Shown here: piece by piece, positions 46,297 through 59,954 of the stretch
How positions within the stretch are numbered: the first letter of the stretch is position 1
Layout of the letters: every line of letters starts with the position of its first letter
Source of the DNA: Janthinobacterium sp. LM6
Lineage (GTDB): Bacteria > Pseudomonadota > Gammaproteobacteria > Burkholderiales > Burkholderiaceae_D
Direction: 5' to 3'
Assembly: GCF_002002885.1 (NCBI RefSeq)
Contig: NZ_CP019510.1
Span: 4,092,001-4,156,000, forward strand
DNA: 64,000 nt
The notes under the pieces: generated by a model
Database searches by the model: none
Told to the model about the DNA's origin: nothing
The model's input: only the letters and a program-made list of their open reading frames with translations
Position numbers and translations under genes: made by a program

Positions 46297-46324
46297 AAAA
46301 AAAAGCCCGCTGCGGGAGCGGGCT
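46297..46324 (-). terminator. Rho-independent terminator of sRNA copy A
   Basis: AGCCCGC and GCGGGCT form a 7-bp stem with a 7-base loop, followed on the minus strand by an 8-base T-run. The flanking CGGGC suggests the stem may extend when read from the opposite side. Confidence 0.88.
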
Positions 46325-46379
46325 GAATCTAATTCCTGTGAGGAAGTAGAGGAGACAGGTGCAATGATGCCGCATCGCA
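46297..46379 (-). ncRNA. Putative anti-Shine-Dalgarno sRNA, copy A
   Basis: This is the 3' part of a ~138-base repeat (46297-46434) that begins 2 bases behind the stop codon of the lipoprotein gene. On the minus strand, CCUGU and ACAGG (46355-46359 with 46335-46339) form a 5-bp stem whose loop contains CUCCUC and UUCCUC, both complementary to the ribosome-binding site core. A terminator follows. A conserved GATAGC around 46385-46390 may be the -10 element. Size is inferred at about 80 nt. Two similar copies lie at 47007 and 51497. Confidence 0.62.
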
Positions 46380-46436
46380 ACATAGCTATCCAATTGTATG
46401 TTGTGATGATAGAAATATGTTTCATCAATATCTTGC

Positions 46437-46937
46437 CTAAGACGCTCCAAAAATGATGAGTTTTCGATGCGATCGTTGTTCGTGTTCGCGCGTCACCAGC
46501 ACGCGGGCTTGCTCCACGCTTACGCAAGCCTGCGGCACGAACCCCGCCGGCACGGTCTGCGCATCGCGCGCGATGACTTGCGGATCATTGAGCACGTCAT
46601 AGTCTGCACGCTTGAAAAACAGTTGCTCGATACCGGCGTCTCCCGCCGGCAACGGCTTGACGACGATGAGCGACCAATGGCCTTCATCCCCCAGAAATTG
46701 CTTTTGCTTCAGGAAGGCGTTGACGCGACCTGCATGCGGCGCCGAGTCGCTCAGCTCGCTCTGATACATGGTCAGCGGACACAGCAGCGTGCCGGCCGGC
46801 CACCCCATGTCGGGCAACGCTGCGACCGTGACCGGACGCAATTGGGCCAGATGGCGGTCGAGCGGATGCTTTTCCGCCGAGCAGGCGCCGAGCGCCATCA
46901 GCGCGAGCATGCCGGCGGCGCGTAACAGAGGAATCAT
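46437..46937 (-). CDS. Putative lipoprotein of unknown function
   Basis: 166 residues. A signal peptide ends in the lipobox LGAC, so Cys19 is probably lipidated. No known domain was recognised. The gene stands between two copies of the sRNA repeat, and copy A begins directly behind its stop codon. Expression is likely to be linked to, or at least read into, that sRNA. Confidence 0.65.
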   Translation of the reverse strand: MIPLLRAAGMLALMALGACSAEKHPLDRHLAQLRPVTVAALPDMGWPAGTLLCPLTMYQSELSDSAPHAGRVNAFLKQKQFLGDEGHWSLIVVKPLPAGDAGIEQLFFKRADYDVLNDPQVIARDAQTVPAGFVPQACVSVEQARVLVTREHEQRSHRKLIIFGAS

Positions 46938-47006
46938 CAGGTGGTTTCCTTCTTGAGGGTAGGATTACGCGAAGGTATGGTAAGCGATAAGCCGATGAGA
47001 ACGGGC

Positions 47007-47034
47007 AAAAAAAAGCCCGCTACGGAAGCGGGCT
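47007..47034 (-). terminator. Rho-independent terminator of sRNA copy B / metE
   Basis: AGCCCGC - 7 bases - GCGGGCT followed on the minus strand by a T-run, identical in stem to copies A and C with one loop change. It would also end metE transcripts. Confidence 0.88.
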
Positions 47035-47089
47035 GAATCTATTTCCTTGGAGGAGATAGAGGAGACAGGTGAATGATGCCGCATCGCAG
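47007..47089 (-). ncRNA. Putative anti-Shine-Dalgarno sRNA, copy B
   Basis: The 3' part of repeat copy B (47007-47142), 33 bases behind the metE stop codon. The core reads CUGUCUCCUCUAUCUCCUCC, with two anti-Shine-Dalgarno stretches. The closing stem is weaker than in copies A and C (CCU with AGG only), so the structure varies while the anti-SD stretches are kept. GATAAT at the conserved -10 position (47094-47099) is the best match among the three copies. Confidence 0.6.
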
Positions 47090-47175
47090 CATCATTATCC
47101 AATTGCATGTTGTGATGACAGAAATACGATCCCGCTATATCTGAGCCATGCCGGCCGCCCCTGCCCCGGTCAGCC

Positions 47176-49464
47176 TCAGGCTGCGTTATCGCCGCGCAAG
47201 GTTTTTGCCGCCGCCACCATGTTCGCCAGCGCGGGAATGACCTCTTTCCAGCCGCGCGTTTTGAGGCCGCAATCGGGATTGACCCACAGGCGCTGCGCGG
47301 GGATGCGTTCGGCCGCCTTGCGCATCAGCTTGACCATCTGTTCCTGGCTCGGAATATTGGGCGAGTGGATGTCGTAGACGCCGGGGCCGATTTCGTTCGG
47401 ATAATTAAAATCATCGAAGGCATCCAGCAATTCCATGTCGGAGCGCGAGGTTTCGATCGTGATGACGTCCGCATCCATGTCGGCGATCTGCGCGATGATG
47501 TCGTTGAATTCCGAATAGCACATGTGTGTGTGGATCTGCGTTTCGTCGGCCACGCCATTGGCCGTGATGCGGAACGATTCCACGGCCCAGCGCAGGTACT
47601 CGGCCCATTGCGATTTGCGCAGCGGCAAGCCTTCGCGCAATGCCGCTTCATCGATCTGGATCACGCGGATGCCGGCCTGCTCCAGGTCCCGCACCTCGGC
47701 GCGCATGGCCAGCGCCAGCTGGTGGCACGACACGGAACGGGGCTGGTCGTCGCGCACGAAGGACCAGTTCAGGATGGTGACGGGGCCCGTCAGCATGCCT
47801 TTCATCGGCTTGTCCGTCAGCGACTGGGCATAGGTGCTCCACTCGACCGTCATGGCGCGCGGGCGGCTGATGTCGCCGAACAAGATGGGCGGTTTGACGC
47901 AGCGCGAACCGTACGACTGCACCCAGCCGAACTGGCTGAAGGCGTAGCCGTCCAGCTGTTCGCCGAAGTATTCCACCATGTCGTTGCGTTCCGCTTCGCC
48001 GTGCACGAACACGTCCAGCCCCAGGCTTTCCTGTTCCTGCACGCAATGGGCGATTTCCGCCTGCATCAGCTTTTTATAGCCGGCTGCATCGAGCTGGCCG
48101 CTGCGGAACTGGCTGCGGGCCTGGCGGATTTGCGCCGTCTGCGGAAACGAGCCGATGGTCGTCGTCGGGTACAGCGGCAGTTGCAGCAGCGCAGCTTGCT
48201 TGGCGGCACGCTCGGCATAGCCGCTGGCGCGCTGGCCCAGGCTGGCGTCGATGCGGGCCACGGCCGCCTTGACTTGAGGATTATGCACGCGCGGCGACTG
48301 GCGGCGCGCTTGCACGGCGGCATGATTGGAGTCCAGCGCCGCTTGCACGCAGGCGCGGCCCTGGTTCAGGGCGCCGGCGATGGTGTGCACTTCATCGAGC
48401 TTTTGACGGGCAAAGGCCAGCCAGGATTGGATATCGGCGTCGAGCTTTTGTTCGCTGTCCAGGTCGACGGGCACGTGCAACAGCGAGCACGACGGCGCGA
48501 TCCACAGACGCGATTGCAGGCTGGCATGCACGGGTTCCAGCCACGCCAGCACCTCGTTCAAGTCCGTCTTCCAGATATTGCGGCCATTCACCACGCCCAG
48601 GGACAAGACGCTGGAACTTGGCAATTGGGCGATCACTTGCTCCACTTCCTCGCGGGCATTGACGGCGTCCAGGTGCAGGCCCTGCACGGGCAGCGTGCAC
48701 GCCAGCGCCAGGTTGTCTTGCAGCTTGCCGAAATACGTGGCGAGCAGCAGCTTGACGCCGTTGACCTTGCTCAAGGCAGCGTAGGCCGTGACGAGCGCCT
48801 GCTGCCAGGCGCCGTCGAGTTCCGTGACGAGGATCGGCTCGTCGATCTGCACCCACTCCACGCCCTGCGCGGCCAGTTCCTGCAGCAATTGCACGTAGAC
48901 GGGCAGCAAGCCTTGCAGCAGCGCCAGCTTGTCGGAATCGTCCTTGGCCTTGCCCAGCCACAAGTAGGTGACAGGGCCGATCAGCACGGGCTTGGCCTTT
49001 ACCTTCAGCTGGCGCGCTTGCGCCAGTTGCTGCAGCAAGCGGCTGCTGTCGAGCTTGAACTGCGTGCCGGCCGAAAATTCCGGCACGATGTAATGGTAAT
49101 TGGTGTCGAACCATTTCGTCATTTCACCGGCGTGGACGCAGCTGCAATCGCTGTCGCCGGCCGAGCGGCCACGGGCTACGCGAAAGTAATTATCGAGCGC
49201 TGCGCCTTCCAGGCCGCGCACGCGCTGCGGCAGGTTGCCGAGGGTAAAGCTCAAGTCCAGCACCTGGTCATAGTAGGAAAAGTCGCCGACGGGCGCCAGA
49301 TCCAGCGCGTCCTGGTCTTGCCAGTGGCGCTGGCGCAATTCGGCGCCTTGCCCTTCCAGCGCGGCCAAGGTGCTGCTGCCCTTCCAGTAGTCTTCCAGGG
49401 CGAATTTCAGTTCGCGTTTGGCGCCGATGCGCGGGTAGCCCAGATTATGTGTCGTGACGGTCAT
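47176..49464 (-). CDS. metE: Cobalamin-independent methionine synthase MetE
   Basis: 762 residues, full length. It transfers the methyl group of 5-methyltetrahydrofolate (triglutamate) to homocysteine in the last step of methionine synthesis. Zinc ligands H647 and C649 (HMC) and C732 (NPDCGL) are present, and the N-terminal half has the family start [25 protein letters not shown] precedes the ATG. The leader is short and no cobalamin or SAM riboswitch is visible. The divergent metR is only a remnant. Confidence 0.96.
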
Positions 49465-49569
49465 GGCGGTAGTTCCTCCTGATGAAGTATGGAGTCATCA
49501 TAGAGGCTTTCATCCATGAAAAATAATGGTTTAATCTCATAAATCCATTATTAATACTCATGTGAACGT
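49465..49569. promoter_or_regulatory. metE upstream region with palindromes
   Basis: A perfect 12-bp palindrome, TTCATCCATGAA, with the last T as part of a longer AT run, is not exact but its arms TTCAT and ATGAA are complementary (49509-49520). An inverted repeat AATAATGG - 15 bases - CCATTATT spans 49522-49552. Such sites suit a LysR-type regulator such as MetR, whose remnant starts just beyond at 49570. Confidence 0.5.
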
Positions 49570-49778
49570 ATGCTCGAACGTATCCACCGGGCCTTCATGC
49601 GCGAAATCGACCGTCTCGCTTCGCTGGCGGCCTCGGCCATTTGGCTGCGCGCAGGGAGCCCCTTGCGCCCGGGTGCGGCAGGCATCCAGACGCACAGTTA
49701 TTCCCTCTGGCGCACGCCCGCCGCGCCGCTTTGCCGCAACGCAGCAAGGCGGCAAAGCGGCATAGCGGCGGCGATGCA
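49570..49778 (+). pseudogene. Remnant of metR (N-terminal fragment)
   Basis: The frame starting at 49570 reads MLERIHRAFMREIDRLASLA, close to the first helix of betaproteobacterial MetR, then loses similarity after about 26 codons. The normal LysR helix-turn-helix (the TQSALSH region) and the ~270 further residues are missing. Its orientation, divergent from metE across a palindrome-bearing gap, is that of metR. A 13-bp perfect hairpin (49725-49737 with 49749-49761) lies in the decayed part. I infer deletion of most of metR; a chance match of this short stretch cannot be excluded. Confidence 0.5.
49725..49761. other. 13-bp stem hairpin
   Basis: GCCGCTTTGCCGC and its exact complement GCGGCAAAGCGGC are separated by 11 bases. 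There is no T-run. It lies just behind (on the minus strand) the 116-residue protein gene and may act as its terminator or be part of a decayed element. Confidence 0.55.
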
Positions 49779-50129
49779 CTACCCCGGCTCGCCCACGGCA
49801 TCTTCCTGGATCAGATCCTGCTTGGACGCATAGTACAAATTTCGGCTATCCGTGATCAATGCGCTCAATTTATCCAGCGCGGCACCGACAGGATTCAGCT
49901 GGATGCTGTCGCGCACCGCGGTCAACTCGGCAATCAGTGCCGCAAGCAGTGCGCTCCTGCCATCGATGCGCCCGATGGCGTTCGTGCCCAATTGGAGAAA
50001 CAGGTCATCGATGGCATCCTGGGCCTGGTCGCGTTGCGCTGCTTCCGTATCGGGATCCTCAAGTATGACGCGCAACAAATAGATTGATCGGTTGTATTGA
50101 TTACTGACTTGCTTGACGGTGACAGGCAT
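49779..50129 (-). CDS. Hypothetical protein downstream of lipoprotein gene
   Basis: 116 residues, mostly helical and soluble, with no signal peptide. GAGGAG lies 7 bases ahead of the ATG at 50129; the frame extends 6 codons further without support. No family was recognised. It follows the lipoprotein gene at 24 bases on the same strand and is probably co-transcribed with it. Confidence 0.65.
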   Translation of the reverse strand: MPVTVKQVSNQYNRSIYLLRVILEDPDTEAAQRDQAQDAIDDLFLQLGTNAIGRIDGRSALLAALIAELTAVRDSIQLNPVGAALDKLSALITDSRNLYYASKQDLIQEDAVGEPG

Positions 50130-50153
50130 GGCGAAACTCCTCGGCAATCGACT

Positions 50154-51263
50154 TCAGGCGGAACGAATTCTAAGCAGATCCTTGCGCACCAGAAGGGCTG
50201 CCGAGAACAGGCTCTGAAACTGGGACGTCAGCGCGTGCGGGCGGTCAACCGCCATGCTGAGATCGCTCGTGGCCTGCCTGGTCTGCTGCAGCAAGCTCAC
50301 ATAGTTCTGCATCAGCACATGATAGGCATTCATCCGCTCCACTGCGTGCTGATACTTGACCACGTCCTGTTCGATCCCCAGGACGGTTTCCGTCAGATCC
50401 TCGGGAATCAGCACGGCGCAAGCCTGTAGCTTGCTCTCCACACACTTGCCGTCCAGCACAATGCCCGTTTTCCTGGCAGCCAATCCACCGGCATGTTCCA
50501 GCGTGGCGTTGACCTTCTGCGCCGTCAGCAGCCAGGGACCGCTTCCCGGGCGGGTCAATTTCACGCGCCTTTCCAGCACCCCGACCCTGACTGCCATTTG
50601 ACTCTTGAGACGCGCCATGTCCATCTCCGCGAGCGCCGCGCGCAAAGTGTAATAGTCGCTCGCATTGTCGATGAACAGATCGATGATCTTGACGATCACG
50701 GGCGCGCCAAGACGGATGGCCTTGCGAAATTCTTCCTGCGAGCGGGCCTGTTCCAGCATCCCCACCACATCGTTGATCAGCACCCCGGCGCCTGGCAGGA
50801 GCGTCACCGCGCTGCTCAGCACATCGGTAAAGCTGCGCGCGCTGTCCTGCACCTGCTTCACGCTCTTGCCTTCGGCAAGCGCAAACAGCAACTCGTTATA
50901 GGAATCGATCGTCTCCAGCGCCTTGCCCAGCTGACTCCCATGCTCGATCGGGGCTGGTGCCGGCTTGACCAAGGCGGGCGGAAACGGCACCTGCTCCGCT
51001 GCCGGCGCAGGCTTCTCGCGTTGCGCCTTGCGCCGCGCCAGCTCGTCGCGTGCCTGCTGGTGATCGAGCCACACCTCCTGCATGACGCTCTTCGATTGGG
51101 CAAAGGCATCCCGATACGACTGCAGTTCCGCCTGGGGAGGCGTAGTACAAGCCGTCATGCAACATAACAGGAGAAGAAGGATGTGGCGGGAACGGAGAAG
51201 GCCATGGCCATCGCCCGTGGCGCTGGAAGCGCTCAAGCGAGGCTCATTGAAAAGGCAAAACAT
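50154..51263 (-). CDS. Putative lipoprotein of unknown function
   Basis: 369 residues. AAGGAG lies 7 bases ahead of the ATG at 51263, giving an N-terminal extension of about 25 residues before a Leu-rich signal (ILLLLLCCMTAC) with lipobox MTAC; a TTG start nearer the signal is possible. The mature part is helical with a hydrophobic stretch (VLSSAVTLLPGAGVLINDVVGML) and later coiled-coil regions. The frame continues to 51365. I recognise no family; with the following 116-residue gene it forms an unknown envelope-associated pair. Confidence 0.66.
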   Translation of the reverse strand: MFCLFNEPRLSASSATGDGHGLLRSRHILLLLLCCMTACTTPPQAELQSYRDAFAQSKSVMQEVWLDHQQARDELARRKAQREKPAPAAEQVPFPPALVKPAPAPIEHGSQLGKALETIDSYNELLFALAEGKSVKQVQDSARSFTDVLSSAVTLLPGAGVLINDVVGMLEQARSQEEFRKAIRLGAPVIVKIIDLFIDNASDYYTLRAALAEMDMARLKSQMAVRVGVLERRVKLTRPGSGPWLLTAQKVNATLEHAGGLAARKTGIVLDGKCVESKLQACAVLIPEDLTETVLGIEQDVVKYQHAVERMNAYHVLMQNYVSLLQQTRQATSDLSMAVDRPHALTSQFQSLFSAALLVRKDLLRIRSA

Positions 51264-51496
51264 CGATGCTCTCCTTGCATGCGCATGCGGCACATGGACG
51301 ATGGCTTGTACTTGATATGGAACAGCGCCCAGCATGGAATCGCCGCACTTTTTGATGAAGATCAAAAATCAGAGCAATACAATTCGAACTTCCTTGCCTT
51401 TCCGGCTAGTATTTTTACTTTAATCGAAAAAAACTGTAGGAAAATCACCAATAGTCACAAAAATGCAGACATGCTCAACTGGTGCCGCGCCTGGAC
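51264..51496. other. AT-rich intergenic region
   Basis: The 233 bases between the lipoprotein gene and sRNA copy C include an AT-rich stretch (51350-51470). It should hold the promoter of the lipoprotein operon on the minus strand, but I see no convincing promoter elements and no ORF with a good start. Confidence 0.4.
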
Positions 51497-51525
51497 AAAA
51501 AAAAAGCCCGCTACGGGAGCGGGCT
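51497..51525 (-). terminator. Rho-independent terminator of sRNA copy C / lacI-type gene
   Basis: AGCCCGC - 7 bases - GCGGGCT with an 8-base T-run on the minus strand, as in copies A and B. It would also end transcripts of the LacI-type gene. Confidence 0.88.
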
Positions 51526-51579
51526 GAATCTAATTCCTGTGAGGAAGTAGAGGAGACAGGTGAATGATGCCGCATCGCA
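51497..51579 (-). ncRNA. Putative anti-Shine-Dalgarno sRNA, copy C
   Basis: The 3' part of repeat copy C (51497-51634), 16 bases behind the LacI-type gene. The stem CCUGU/ACAGG (51556-51560 with 51536-51540) and the loop with CUCCUC and UUCCUC are identical to copy A. GATAAC (51585-51590) is at the conserved -10 position. Copies A and C agree almost throughout, although they lie 5 kb apart and their flanks are unrelated. Confidence 0.62.
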
Positions 51580-51650
51580 GCATAGTTATCCAATTGCATG
51601 TTGTGATGATAGAAATATGATTCATCAATATCTGCCGCAGCCAGGGCATC

Positions 51651-52685
51651 TCAGGCGCTGGCCCGCGCGATCAGCTGGTAGGCCAGCGGCGCCAAGGCCG
51701 GCGGCGCCGCGCCCTCGTCCACCTCGCCCAGGCGCTGCAGGATGGCTTGCGCGGCCAGCCGGCCGATGTCATAGCGGGGCACGCGGATCGTCGTCAGCGC
51801 CGGCATGAGTTTTTCCGAGAACGGGAAGTCGCCAAAGCCCGCCACCGCGCATTGCTCGGGAATGCGGATGCCCAGGTGCGCCGCTTCATAGATGGCGCCG
51901 GCAGCCATGTTGTCGTTGGCAAAAAACAGGGCGTCGGGACGCTCGGCGCGCGCCATTTGCTCGCTGAATACTTGCCCGCCCGCGTCAAGCGGCGCCGTCA
52001 CCGACGCTTGCACGATTTCCGGGCGCAAACCCAGCTGCTGCATGGTTTCCTCATAACCCTGGGCCCGCTTGCGCGCGCGGAAATCGCTGCCGATGCCGCT
52101 GTCGACGTAGACGATGCGCCGGTAGCCTTGCGCGTGCAGGTACAAGGTCATGTCGCGCCCCGTGGCGATATGCGAAAAACCGATTTGCGGATACGGCCGC
52201 TCGGGGCGGATATCCCACGTTTCGATGACGGGAATCCGCAAGCCGGCCAGCAAGGTTTCCGTGGCGGCGCTGTGGTCGGCGCCCGTCAGCACCAGCGCGC
52301 GCGGCGACCAGCCGAGAAAGGCGCGCACCACCTTCTCTTCCGTCTCGATCGAATAATCGTGGGTAGCCAGCAGCAATTGGTAATTGTGCTGCGACAAGGT
52401 GGTCGACAAACCCTGGATGGTTTCCGCAAAGATGGAGTTCGACACGCTGGGCACGATGGCGCCCACGATGCGGCCCTGGGTCGACGCCAGGCCGCCGGCC
52501 GCCTCGTTGCGAATGTAGCCGAGCTGGTCGATGGCGCTCTTGATGCGCTCGCGCGTTTCCTGCGACACGCGGTCCGGCTCCTTGAAATAGCGCGACACGG
52601 AAATGGCCGAGGTCTGTGCCAATTTGGCCACATCGAACACGGTGCTGCGGCCGAGGCCACGCCGCTTGCGTACTGGGTCGTTCAT
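51651..52685 (-). CDS. LacI-family transcriptional regulator
   Basis: 344 residues, GntR-like branch of the LacI family. The N-terminal helix-turn-helix is TVFDVAKLAQTSAISVSRYF with the hinge region YIRNEAAGGLAS. The periplasmic-binding-protein-like domain follows. It is divergent from the sugar operon at 53047 and presumably represses it from the palindrome at 52956, with a sugar or sugar acid as inducer. Confidence 0.92.
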   Translation of the reverse strand: MNDPVRKRRGLGRSTVFDVAKLAQTSAISVSRYFKEPDRVSQETRERIKSAIDQLGYIRNEAAGGLASTQGRIVGAIVPSVSNSIFAETIQGLSTTLSQHNYQLLLATHDYSIETEEKVVRAFLGWSPRALVLTGADHSAATETLLAGLRIPVIETWDIRPERPYPQIGFSHIATGRDMTLYLHAQGYRRIVYVDSGIGSDFRARKRAQGYEETMQQLGLRPEIVQASVTAPLDAGGQVFSEQMARAERPDALFFANDNMAAGAIYEAAHLGIRIPEQCAVAGFGDFPFSEKLMPALTTIRVPRYDIGRLAAQAILQRLGEVDEGAAPPALAPLAYQLIARASA

Positions 52686-58212: not shown

Positions 58213-59127
58213 ATGAGGCAACGCACCCTGAAAAGCCGCATCACGGACCCCAGCGAAACAGCGCTGGCCTGGGTCCTGCTGACGCCGGCGATTCTCTTTT
58301 TACTGCTGATCGTGGCCTACCCGGTCAGCAAATTGATCTACAACAGCTTTTTCGACATCCGCCTGTCCGGCGGCAGCCTGCCCAGTTTCGTGGGCCTGGA
58401 CAACTACAAGATGGCGCTGGAAGATGCGCTGTTCTGGAAATCGCTGAAAAACACCGTCATCATCACCGTCGTCACCGTGCCGGGCGCGCTGGTGGCGGGC
58501 CTGGGCCTGGCCATGCTGGCCAACATGCCGTTCAAGTACCGCTGGCCCGTGCGCCTGGCGCTGCTGCTGCCGTGGGCCTTGCCGCTGGCCTTCGTCGGCC
58601 TGATCTTCGCCTGGTTCTTCCACAGCGAATACGGCCTGGTGAACGACATCATCCGCCGCATCGACCTGCTGCTCCCCGGCCTGGGCTGGGAATCGCAAAT
58701 CTGGTTCAATTCGCCCGCGCTGACCATGGCCGCCATCTGCATCACGACCATCTGGAAAACCTCGTCGTTCATGGCCCTGATTTTATTGGCCGGCCTGCAG
58801 ACCATCCCCGCCTCGCTGTATGAAGCGGCCGAAGTGGATGGCGCCAGCAAGTGGAAGCAATTCACGGAAGTGACCCTGCCCCTGCTGGTGCCATCGATGC
58901 TGGTGGCGCTGATCTTCCGCACCCTGACGGCCATCCAGTCCTTCGATATTCCGTACAACATGCCCGGCCCTGGCGACGAAACCAAGACCCTGGCCATGTA
59001 CATCCAGTCCAATACCGTCGATTACCTCGACGTGGGCTACGGCTCGACCCTGGCGGTGTTCATGTTCCTGCTGTCGATGGCCACCACGTTTGTGTATCTG
59101 AAATATGTAAGAGGAGACAAAGAATGA
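58213..59127 (+). CDS. Sugar ABC transporter permease (MalF type)
   Basis: 304 residues with six membrane helices. The EAA coupling motif EAAEVDGASKWKQFTEVTLPLL is present. GAGGAA precedes the ATG at 58213; the frame start at 58150 would add an odd His-rich tract and is rejected. It overlaps the second permease gene by ATGA. Confidence 0.92.
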   Translation: MRQRTLKSRITDPSETALAWVLLTPAILFLLLIVAYPVSKLIYNSFFDIRLSGGSLPSFVGLDNYKMALEDALFWKSLKNTVIITVVTVPGALVAGLGLAMLANMPFKYRWPVRLALLLPWALPLAFVGLIFAWFFHSEYGLVNDIIRRIDLLLPGLGWESQIWFNSPALTMAAICITTIWKTSSFMALILLAGLQTIPASLYEAAEVDGASKWKQFTEVTLPLLVPSMLVALIFRTLTAIQSFDIPYNMPGPGDETKTLAMYIQSNTVDYLDVGYGSTLAVFMFLLSMATTFVYLKYVRGDKE

Positions 59128-59954
59128 GCGGCCTGTTTTCATCGAAGCGCCTGCGCTGGTTCGCCGCCGCGCTCGTCATCCTCAACGGCGTCTTCCCCGC
59201 CCTGTGGATCCTGTTCACCTCGCTCAAGACAGAAACGGAGCTGACGCAAAAGCCGATCACCTACTGGCCGCACGAAGCGACCATCGGCAACTTCATTTCC
59301 GCCTTCCAGGACCAGCCGCTGCTGACGTTTCTCACCAACAGTCTGATCGTGGCCGGCCTGTCGACCCTGCTCAGCCTGTTCATCAGCGCGCTGGCCGCGT
59401 ATGCGATCGCCCGCTTGCGCCTGCGCTTCCGCGGCCTGATCCTGACGGCCATCATCGGCGTGTCGATGTTCCCGCTGGTGACCTTGATGGTGCCGCTGTT
59501 CGAAATCATGCGCAGCCTGGGCTTGCTGAACTCCTACTGGGCGCTGGTGCTGCCGTACACGGTGCTGAACTTGCCCATCTGCACCCTGATGATGGTCAGT
59601 TTCTTTCAGGATATCCCGCGCGACATCGAGAACGCGGCCATGCTCGACGGCTGCACCCGGTTGAGCGCCCTGTGGCGCATCGTGCTGCCGCTGGCCGCGC
59701 CGGGCGTGGCGACGGCGGCCATCCTGGCGTTCGTCAATTCCTGGGACGAGTTCCTGCTGGCGCTGTCGATGAATTCGGCCGTGGCTTACCGCACCCTGCC
59801 CGTCGGCATCCAGCTGTACCAGGGCGAATTCGCCTTCCCGTGGCCGATCATTTCGGCGGCACTGGTGGTGGCCATCGTGCCCATCGTCGTACTGATCGTG
59901 ATTTTCCAGGAAAAGGTCGTTTCCGGCCTGACCTCGGGCGGCTTGAAGGGCTGA
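59124..59954 (+). CDS. Sugar ABC transporter permease (MalG type)
   Basis: 276 residues with six membrane helices and the EAA-type motif ENAAMLDGCTRLSALWRIVLPL. It forms the membrane channel with the MalF-type protein whose stop codon it overlaps. GAGGAG lies ahead of the ATG at 59124. Confidence 0.92.
   Translation: MSGLFSSKRLRWFAAALVILNGVFPALWILFTSLKTETELTQKPITYWPHEATIGNFISAFQDQPLLTFLTNSLIVAGLSTLLSLFISALAAYAIARLRLRFRGLILTAIIGVSMFPLVTLMVPLFEIMRSLGLLNSYWALVLPYTVLNLPICTLMMVSFFQDIPRDIENAAMLDGCTRLSALWRIVLPLAAPGVATAAILAFVNSWDEFLLALSMNSAVAYRTLPVGIQLYQGEFAFPWPIISAALVVAIVPIVVLIVIFQEKVVSGLTSGGLKG

Follow-up and report, generated by a model that had tools for sequence, protein, structure and literature searches.

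Three repeats of ~137 nucleotides (nt) lie on the minus strand of the window analysed in this study, a stretch of 64,000 nt from Janthinobacterium sp. LM6 (contig NZ_CP019510.1, positions 4,092,001 to 4,156,000; coordinates are those of the window, except that seven-digit ones refer to the contig). The repeats can be aligned in register, and each unit, as delimited by repeat comparison, consists of a promoter region followed by the core of a small RNA (sRNA). Copy 1 (46297..46434) lies 2 bases behind the stop codon of a lipoprotein-like accessory open reading frame (ORF; 46437..46937) located between copies 1 and 2, copy 2 (47007..47142) lies 33 bases behind that of metE (47176..49464; TIGR01371, 1107.9 bits, and NF003556) and copy 3 (51497..51634) lies 16 bases behind that of a gene for a LacI-family regulator (51651..52685; PF00356 and PF13377), all three genes also being on the minus strand. 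An earlier note made from the sequence alone (the original prediction) had described the three copies, their strand and these distances, which the coordinates bear out, as do the family matches for metE and the lacI-type gene; the lipoprotein gene that it named is present as a lipoprotein-like ORF, to which no Pfam or NCBIfam family matches. Its statement that the flanks differ is true beyond the repeat unit. We consider it very likely that each copy is a self-contained sRNA gene of the Rfam family RF02278, that its RNA of ~61 nt would block the ribosome-binding sites (RBSs) of catabolic and uptake genes, and that the sibling copies appear to recombine.

Family identity and distribution

An Rfam (release 15) covariance search, which had been proposed as a check, was run on the repeats and on the genome (6.29 Mb, a single contig). 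All three window copies match RF02278, 'Betaproteobacteria toxic small RNA', over positions 1-64 of the 64-position model, with 56.6-59.4 bits against a gathering score of 50 bits and E values of 2e-9 to 1e-8, beyond chance. The matched minus-strand cores are 46297..46357 in copy 1 (56.6 bits), 47007..47067 in copy 2 (59.4 bits) and 51498..51558 in copy 3 (57.0 bits), each corresponding to an inferred ~61-nt transcript that runs from UGUCUCC to the U-run. The three repeats are members of this published family, as the original prediction had supposed from their likeness to a betaproteobacterial toxic sRNA.

Ten matches were counted in the genome at E <= 0.001, eight of them above the cut-off. 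Six of the ten lie within 4138297-4168509 (~30 kb), all on the minus strand, whereas random placement of ten copies gave at most four per 30.2 kb in 200,000 trials. The tenth match, at 6203279-6203338, scores 35.5 bits and follows a GST-like gene; its sequence, TGTCTCTTTC, has no CUCCUC, and it seems to be degenerate. RF02278 matches were furthermore present in 40/40 genomes of the genus (3-12 per genome) and in 228/245 genomes of the family (215/245 above the cut-off), with up to 19 per genome. Family genomes also carry tandem pairs 206-228 nt apart (loci L049, L051, L057, L059, L060, L062, L064, L065, L072, L082 and L116). Among the 323 genomes of the class, three had matches above the cut-off, all from the same order, so that by this cut-off RF02278 is confined to Burkholderiales/Betaproteobacteria; 87 more had weaker matches, all below the cut-off (maximum 48.7 bits), which are perhaps chance look-alikes or distant kin.

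Promoter and transcript start

The region ahead of the core was compared in 128 units, of which 80 remained after those at least 80% alike over -70..+5 had been dropped. A TATAAT-like hexamer (at least 4/6) lies 4-7 nt before TGTCTCC in 72/80 units, compared with 22% at control offsets; TTG occurs within the -35 area of 58/80, a count for which no control was computed, and A/T-rich blocks are conserved near -72, -58, -49 and -43. At these positions on the minus strand of the window, the inferred -10 hexamer is CATCAT in all three copies (46364..46369, 47073..47078 and 51564..51569) and the inferred -35 hexamer is TTGGAT (46388..46393, with an 18-nt spacer, 47097..47102 and 51588..51593). Since the conserved -10 lies 4-7 nt before the core, the transcript probably starts at or near UGUCUCC and would be an RNA of ~61 nt. 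As a promoter, TTGGAT-N18-CATCAT is weak, which suggests that an activator acts at the window promoters. A sigma-54 promoter was rejected by eye owing to unsuitable spacing.

The original prediction had instead placed a conserved -10-like GATAAY about 45 bases ahead of the core. Copy 1 reads GATAGC at this position, and the motif occurs in 4/80 relatives (-60..-31), so that GATAAY was rejected as a general -10. It has some basis in copy 2 (minus strand, 47094..47121), where the promoter scan picks CTGTCA-N16-GATAAT, a promoter-like site that is kept neither in copy 1 nor in the majority of relatives; an ~80-nt form of copy 2 starting from GATAAT is possible.

A dyad, ATGCTGCGATGCGGCAT, was found by pattern match in the spacer between the -35 and -10 of copy 2 (47073..47092) and in copy 3 (51564-51583), both on the minus strand, and is a possible operator. 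A search of the same genome gave 14 hits, five of them at four sRNA promoters, compared with three hits for the control. Inspection by eye showed the form ATGCNG-N5-CNGCAT, overlapping the -10, in many units of Janthinobacterium, Massilia and Duganella, and none in Herbaspirillum- and Oxalicibacterium-type units. The palindrome was also considered as a 5' hairpin of the main transcript; this was rejected, since its right arm shares positions with the conserved -10, which in our judgement places it outside that transcript, and the segment was retained as a possible operator. Its TGC/GCA triplets are common to the published PhbF/PhaR motif, given as TG[N]TGC[N]3GCAA in the available text of PMC3206438, yet one triplet is usually off in the copies viewed by eye. 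Similar triplets also precede phaR (locus L260). PhaR/PhbF may be a regulator that acts through this dyad.

RNA structure

Folding and a terminator scan gave two hairpins in each window copy, the second of which is the terminator (minus strand, 46304..46324, 47014..47034 and 51505..51525). The shared stem terminator followed by a T-run in the original prediction is present in each copy, with the stem counted by the tool as 8 pairs rather than the 7 proposed. Hairpin 1 was aligned in 60/62 dereplicated cores, the odd ones from L166 and L187 being omitted, and two-sided changes were found at three of its five pairs. The 5' arm is free: UGUCUCC has an unpaired probability of 0.98-1.00 in the three window copies, and UCUCC is unpaired at 0.95 or more in 103/103 folded cores. 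The conservation of this arm in relatives is by construction, because they were gathered by regular expressions or by a scan that fixed TGTCTC.

Candidate targets

Searching the genome for GAGGAGACA-N2-9-ATG gave 23 sites (control, 1), of which six are sRNA loci on the opposite strand and 17 are possible RBSs. Nine of these 17 precede genes assigned to catabolism or uptake, compared with 3/43 control RBSs (Fisher p 0.0002); with generous calls for the controls the share becomes 7/43 (p 0.006), and p is 0.014 if two unscanned controls are also taken as catabolic. Targets came from the whole genome, whereas controls were RBSs with GAGGAG, a following triplet other than ACA and a gap of 5-8 nt, drawn from a list of 202 GAGGAG-N5-12-ATG sites, of which the first 100 were used; 54 of the 57 listed control sites were used, nine of the 54 were dropped for want of a credible ORF (a filter that was not applied to the targets), and 43 of the resulting 45 were scanned by Pfam (L394 and L396 left out).

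By Pfam, the catabolic and uptake candidates are an XylR-type regulator, two Peripla_BP_6 binding proteins, 4-hydroxyphenylpyruvate dioxygenase (hppD), an enoyl-CoA hydratase, an amidohydrolase, an ABC permease, a CoA-transferase and urocanase. The other eight are a metallophosphoesterase, a pyridine-nucleotide oxidoreductase, a flavin monooxygenase-like protein, glutathione peroxidase, DUF4399, DUF5694 and two without a Pfam match. Within the window, a candidate target RBS (59111..59126, plus strand) carries GAGGAGACA, which is fully complementary to the 5' arm of the sRNA, at an ABC transporter permease ORF (59124-59954). The set agrees with published targets of two related RNAs, ncS27 of Burkholderia cenocepacia (phenylalanine/tyrosine catabolism and carbohydrate transport, in the available part of PMC10987360) and S17 of Bordetella pertussis (transporters and paa genes, in that of PMC11722255), and it offers a testable list in hppD, hutU, the CoA-transferase and the ABC uptake genes.

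Proposed mechanism and alternatives

In the proposed mechanism, a sigma-70-type promoter close behind the upstream stop codon would start an RNA of ~61 nt at or near UGUCUCC. Three elements would follow one another in it: an unpaired arm at the 5' end, UGUCUCC(UC), a small hairpin with covariation and the hairpin of the terminator. Through its arm, the RNA would pair with RBSs of the GAGGAGACA type and so block the translation of catabolic and nutrient-uptake messenger RNAs (mRNAs), probably under limited growth, as the published relatives and the target test suggest. The copies would be sibling RNAs, mostly placed behind same-strand genes and apparently recombining with one another.

Several observations weigh against this mechanism. 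The window hexamers CATCAT (4/6) and TTGGAT (3/6) are weak, and the promoter scan reported neither; it chose GATAAT in copy 2 instead, with 9/12, one site being found versus 0.5 expected from shuffles. A longer RNA is possible, since in copy 2 the segment ahead of the core forms a hairpin (whole-stretch z -5.2) and lengths of 93-115 nt have been reported for homologues in Herbaspirillum. Furthermore, two CU stretches had been predicted to pair with AGGAG sites, and only the one in the accessible 5' arm fits: the second anti-Shine-Dalgarno (anti-SD) stretch (UUCCUC or CUCCUCC) is mostly paired within hairpin 1 in all three window copies (unpaired probability of the best 5-mer 0.24, 0.44 and 0.24), so that pairing by these copies seems to depend on the 5' arm. 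They differ in this from many family members, as the loop anti-SD is free (0.8 or more) in 32/32 distinct cores of L047-L076; among 22 cores of the genus it is free in 12, intermediate in one, below 0.5 in seven and without the word in two, and among 49 cores from the pattern scan it is free in 21, intermediate in 10, lower in four and without the word in 14. With respect to the targets, these had already been inspected visually when the rule for the controls was set, and the catabolic/uptake class was given by hand after that inspection. In addition, GAGGAGACA may be merely a common RBS; of the first 100 GAGGAG-N5-12-ATG sites, 10 have ACA after GAGGAG. The hppD RBS, compared in 30 loci out of 76 genomes with a match, keeps at least eight of the nine complementary bases in a row in just 14/30, with all nine present in the five closest loci (L397-L401, own genome included).

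The placement of the copies bears on what else the units could be. In an ORF map based on length, each of the ten genome matches follows an ORF on its own strand, and codon-usage calls agree in 9/9 examined. Among 109 placed relatives, whose genes were called with a home-made codon-usage caller and whose copies less than 400 nt from a locus end were skipped, the called upstream gene is on the same strand in 81/105 and on the opposite strand in 24/105, and in 66 of the 81 the core lies 53-145 nt past the stop codon. Of the remaining gaps of at least 120 nt in these 8-kb loci, 38 are divergent, 33 are tandem and three are convergent, from which ~26% would be expected under random orientation. 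Orthologues and tandem pairs mean that the placement, promoter and fold counts are not made on independent units.

Such a bias would also be expected of a portable 3'-end module, in which the unit mainly terminates the upstream mRNA, the RNA is a fragment of the mRNA 3' end and anti-SD pairing is secondary; in copies 1-3, moreover, no further terminator on the same strand was detected by the scan between the stop codon and the core. This explanation is nevertheless unlikely, in that it leaves unexplained the -10 kept at a fixed place in most units, the covariation of hairpin 1, which a terminator would not need, the relatives behind an opposite-strand gene, and the copy at 4168448, whose upstream gene already has, judging by the sequence, a terminator-like hairpin. 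A plain intergenic repeat, that is, a mobile non-autonomous element without RNA function, would account for the many copies per genome and for the differences and apparent recombination of copies between genomes, but is very improbable given the orientation bias, promoter, covarying hairpin and terminator, together with the expression reported for homologues in the available descriptions from Burkholderia, Herbaspirillum and Bordetella. Equally improbable is a type I-like toxin element whose RNA broadly stops translation and whose antidote went undetected: the family was named for inhibition of Escherichia coli growth from plasmids (Kimelman, 2012, as cited in later papers), yet PMC11722255, in a passage that also names E. 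coli BL21, describes no more than a modest growth impairment at stationary-phase entry, every genus genome carries several matches, and the ten matches have upstream neighbours of different kinds, no systematic search for a partner gene having been made.

Another subset of relatives, with the core CCACCCTCCTCC, has upstream genes on the opposite strand where called and no visible -10. The same was observed for a subfamily with the core UGUCUCCUCCACCCUCCUCCUUUGGUGGA (L048, L052, L053, L068 and L070), whose RNAs are perhaps processed from a longer RNA, as is S17. Paralogous upstream genes were considered as a cause of the ~2.4 kb spacing of copies outside the window and rejected, the two scanned out of three (the third being 4168642-4170909) encoding an alanine transaminase and an MFS permease.

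Comparison with known RNAs

The B. cenocepacia members are the double-hairpin RNAs ncS03, ncS05, ncS27 and ncS62, bdhR1 being a name for one such RNA. In the available text of PMC5688073, the family is described with RBS-complementary CU stretches and growth attenuation, overexpression of ncS27 slows growth, and the four lengths are 59, 67, 92 and 57 nt, ncS03, ncS05 and ncS62 falling within 57-67 nt; toxicity or growth attenuation has thus been published by others, for other members of RF02278. The window copies resemble these RNAs in the full-length covariance match, two hairpins, CU-rich 5' arm, RBS complementarity, shortness (57-92 nt published versus ~61 nt inferred here) and predicted catabolic and transport targets. 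They differ in the buried second anti-SD stretch and in having about ten copies per genome, six of them in 30 kb, same-strand neighbours and chimeras, whereas three to five homologues, 'not in tandem', are given for Burkholderia in the part of the same source that was available (Sass, 2017, PMC5688073).

Bordetella pertussis S17, with its short form S17S, is alike in that its conserved Site 1, at the 5' end, pairs with the RBSs of its targets, and in having transporter and phenylacetate genes among these. Target pairing of the S17 5' end was shown by compensatory mutations, its disruption and compensation altering repression (PMC11722255, as far as available). S17S derives from a precursor of ~190 nt, whereas in the window copies the core is immediately preceded by a promoter-like -10. 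Herbaspirillum seropedicae Hsnc059, Hsnc063, Hsnc086 and Hsnc107 belong to the same Rfam family and differ in their four copies and their length, with 24-47 nt before the Rfam match.

The RF02278 family, its anti-RBS action and its metabolic targets are already in print. The clustering, the bias towards same-strand neighbours and the apparent recombination of copies are the new part; among the matches listed in a search of open-licence literature, no title or abstract dealt with RF02278 in Janthinobacterium or with copies as recombination joints, although one listed paper, PMC3521395, does mention both Janthinobacterium and sRNAs. A named but little-studied sRNA family is hereby extended to Janthinobacterium, with more copies than reported in Burkholderia, and its likely transcription start is corrected relative to GATAAY.

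Apparent recombination between copies

The loci of the three upstream genes were compared among the 40 genomes of the genus. For metE (35 genomes matched), 23/30 loci carry an sRNA 92-120 nt past the stop codon, and the seven without one are the least similar metE hits (~88% or less), which could represent different metE genes. Strong matches to the lipoprotein gene exist in 14/40 genomes, an sRNA lying 73-80 nt behind the gene in 12/15 loci and none in 3/15, and the lacI-type gene is followed by an sRNA at 90-93 nt in 9/10 loci, two of which have a tandem second copy.

Beyond the metE-side sRNA, the 23 loci vary in content. A second sRNA lies between it and the transporter gene in 10/23, and in nine of these ten (one of them partial) a lipoprotein match lies between both sRNAs, with none in L262. 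Two of the 23 have the lipoprotein gene and no second sRNA within the ~1.5 kb examined, and nine have neither the lipoprotein nor the transporter gene there. In the remaining arrangement, that of L266 and L282, the metE-side sRNA stands directly before the transporter, with core-to-start distances of 166 and 168 nt (165 in the window), and the lipoprotein gene is missing. The 5' flank of their sRNA is of the metE type (0.84, modestly above the 0.77 and 0.79 for the other type), whereas the core and 3' flank are of the lipoprotein type (0.82 and 0.93 versus 0.68 and 0.71). With this composition, the L266/L282 sRNAs look like chimeras, the product expected from recombination of two direct repeats, and the direction could be either loss or gain of the cassette. 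Furthermore, a lipoprotein-type core is present in 11/23 metE-side units, part of a general mixing of core types that gene conversion would produce.

Sibling sRNA genes are thereby suggested as joints of gene-order change, which bears on the origin of multi-copy sRNA families and on the likeness of their members. A more speculative extension, which we regard as doubtful at present, is that in Janthinobacterium and its kin the promoter-sRNA-terminator units, set directly behind same-strand genes, serve as genome-shuffling modules, acting as direct repeats by which accessory genes such as the lipoprotein gene are loaded and dropped, with gene conversion homogenizing the siblings and a PhaR/PhbF-like dyad linking them to carbon storage.

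Divergent from metE, the stretch at 49540-49780 has a short ORF that starts with MLERIHRAFMREIDRLASLA. We take this start to resemble that of a LysR-type (MetR-like) regulator, of which the ORF is possibly a remnant.

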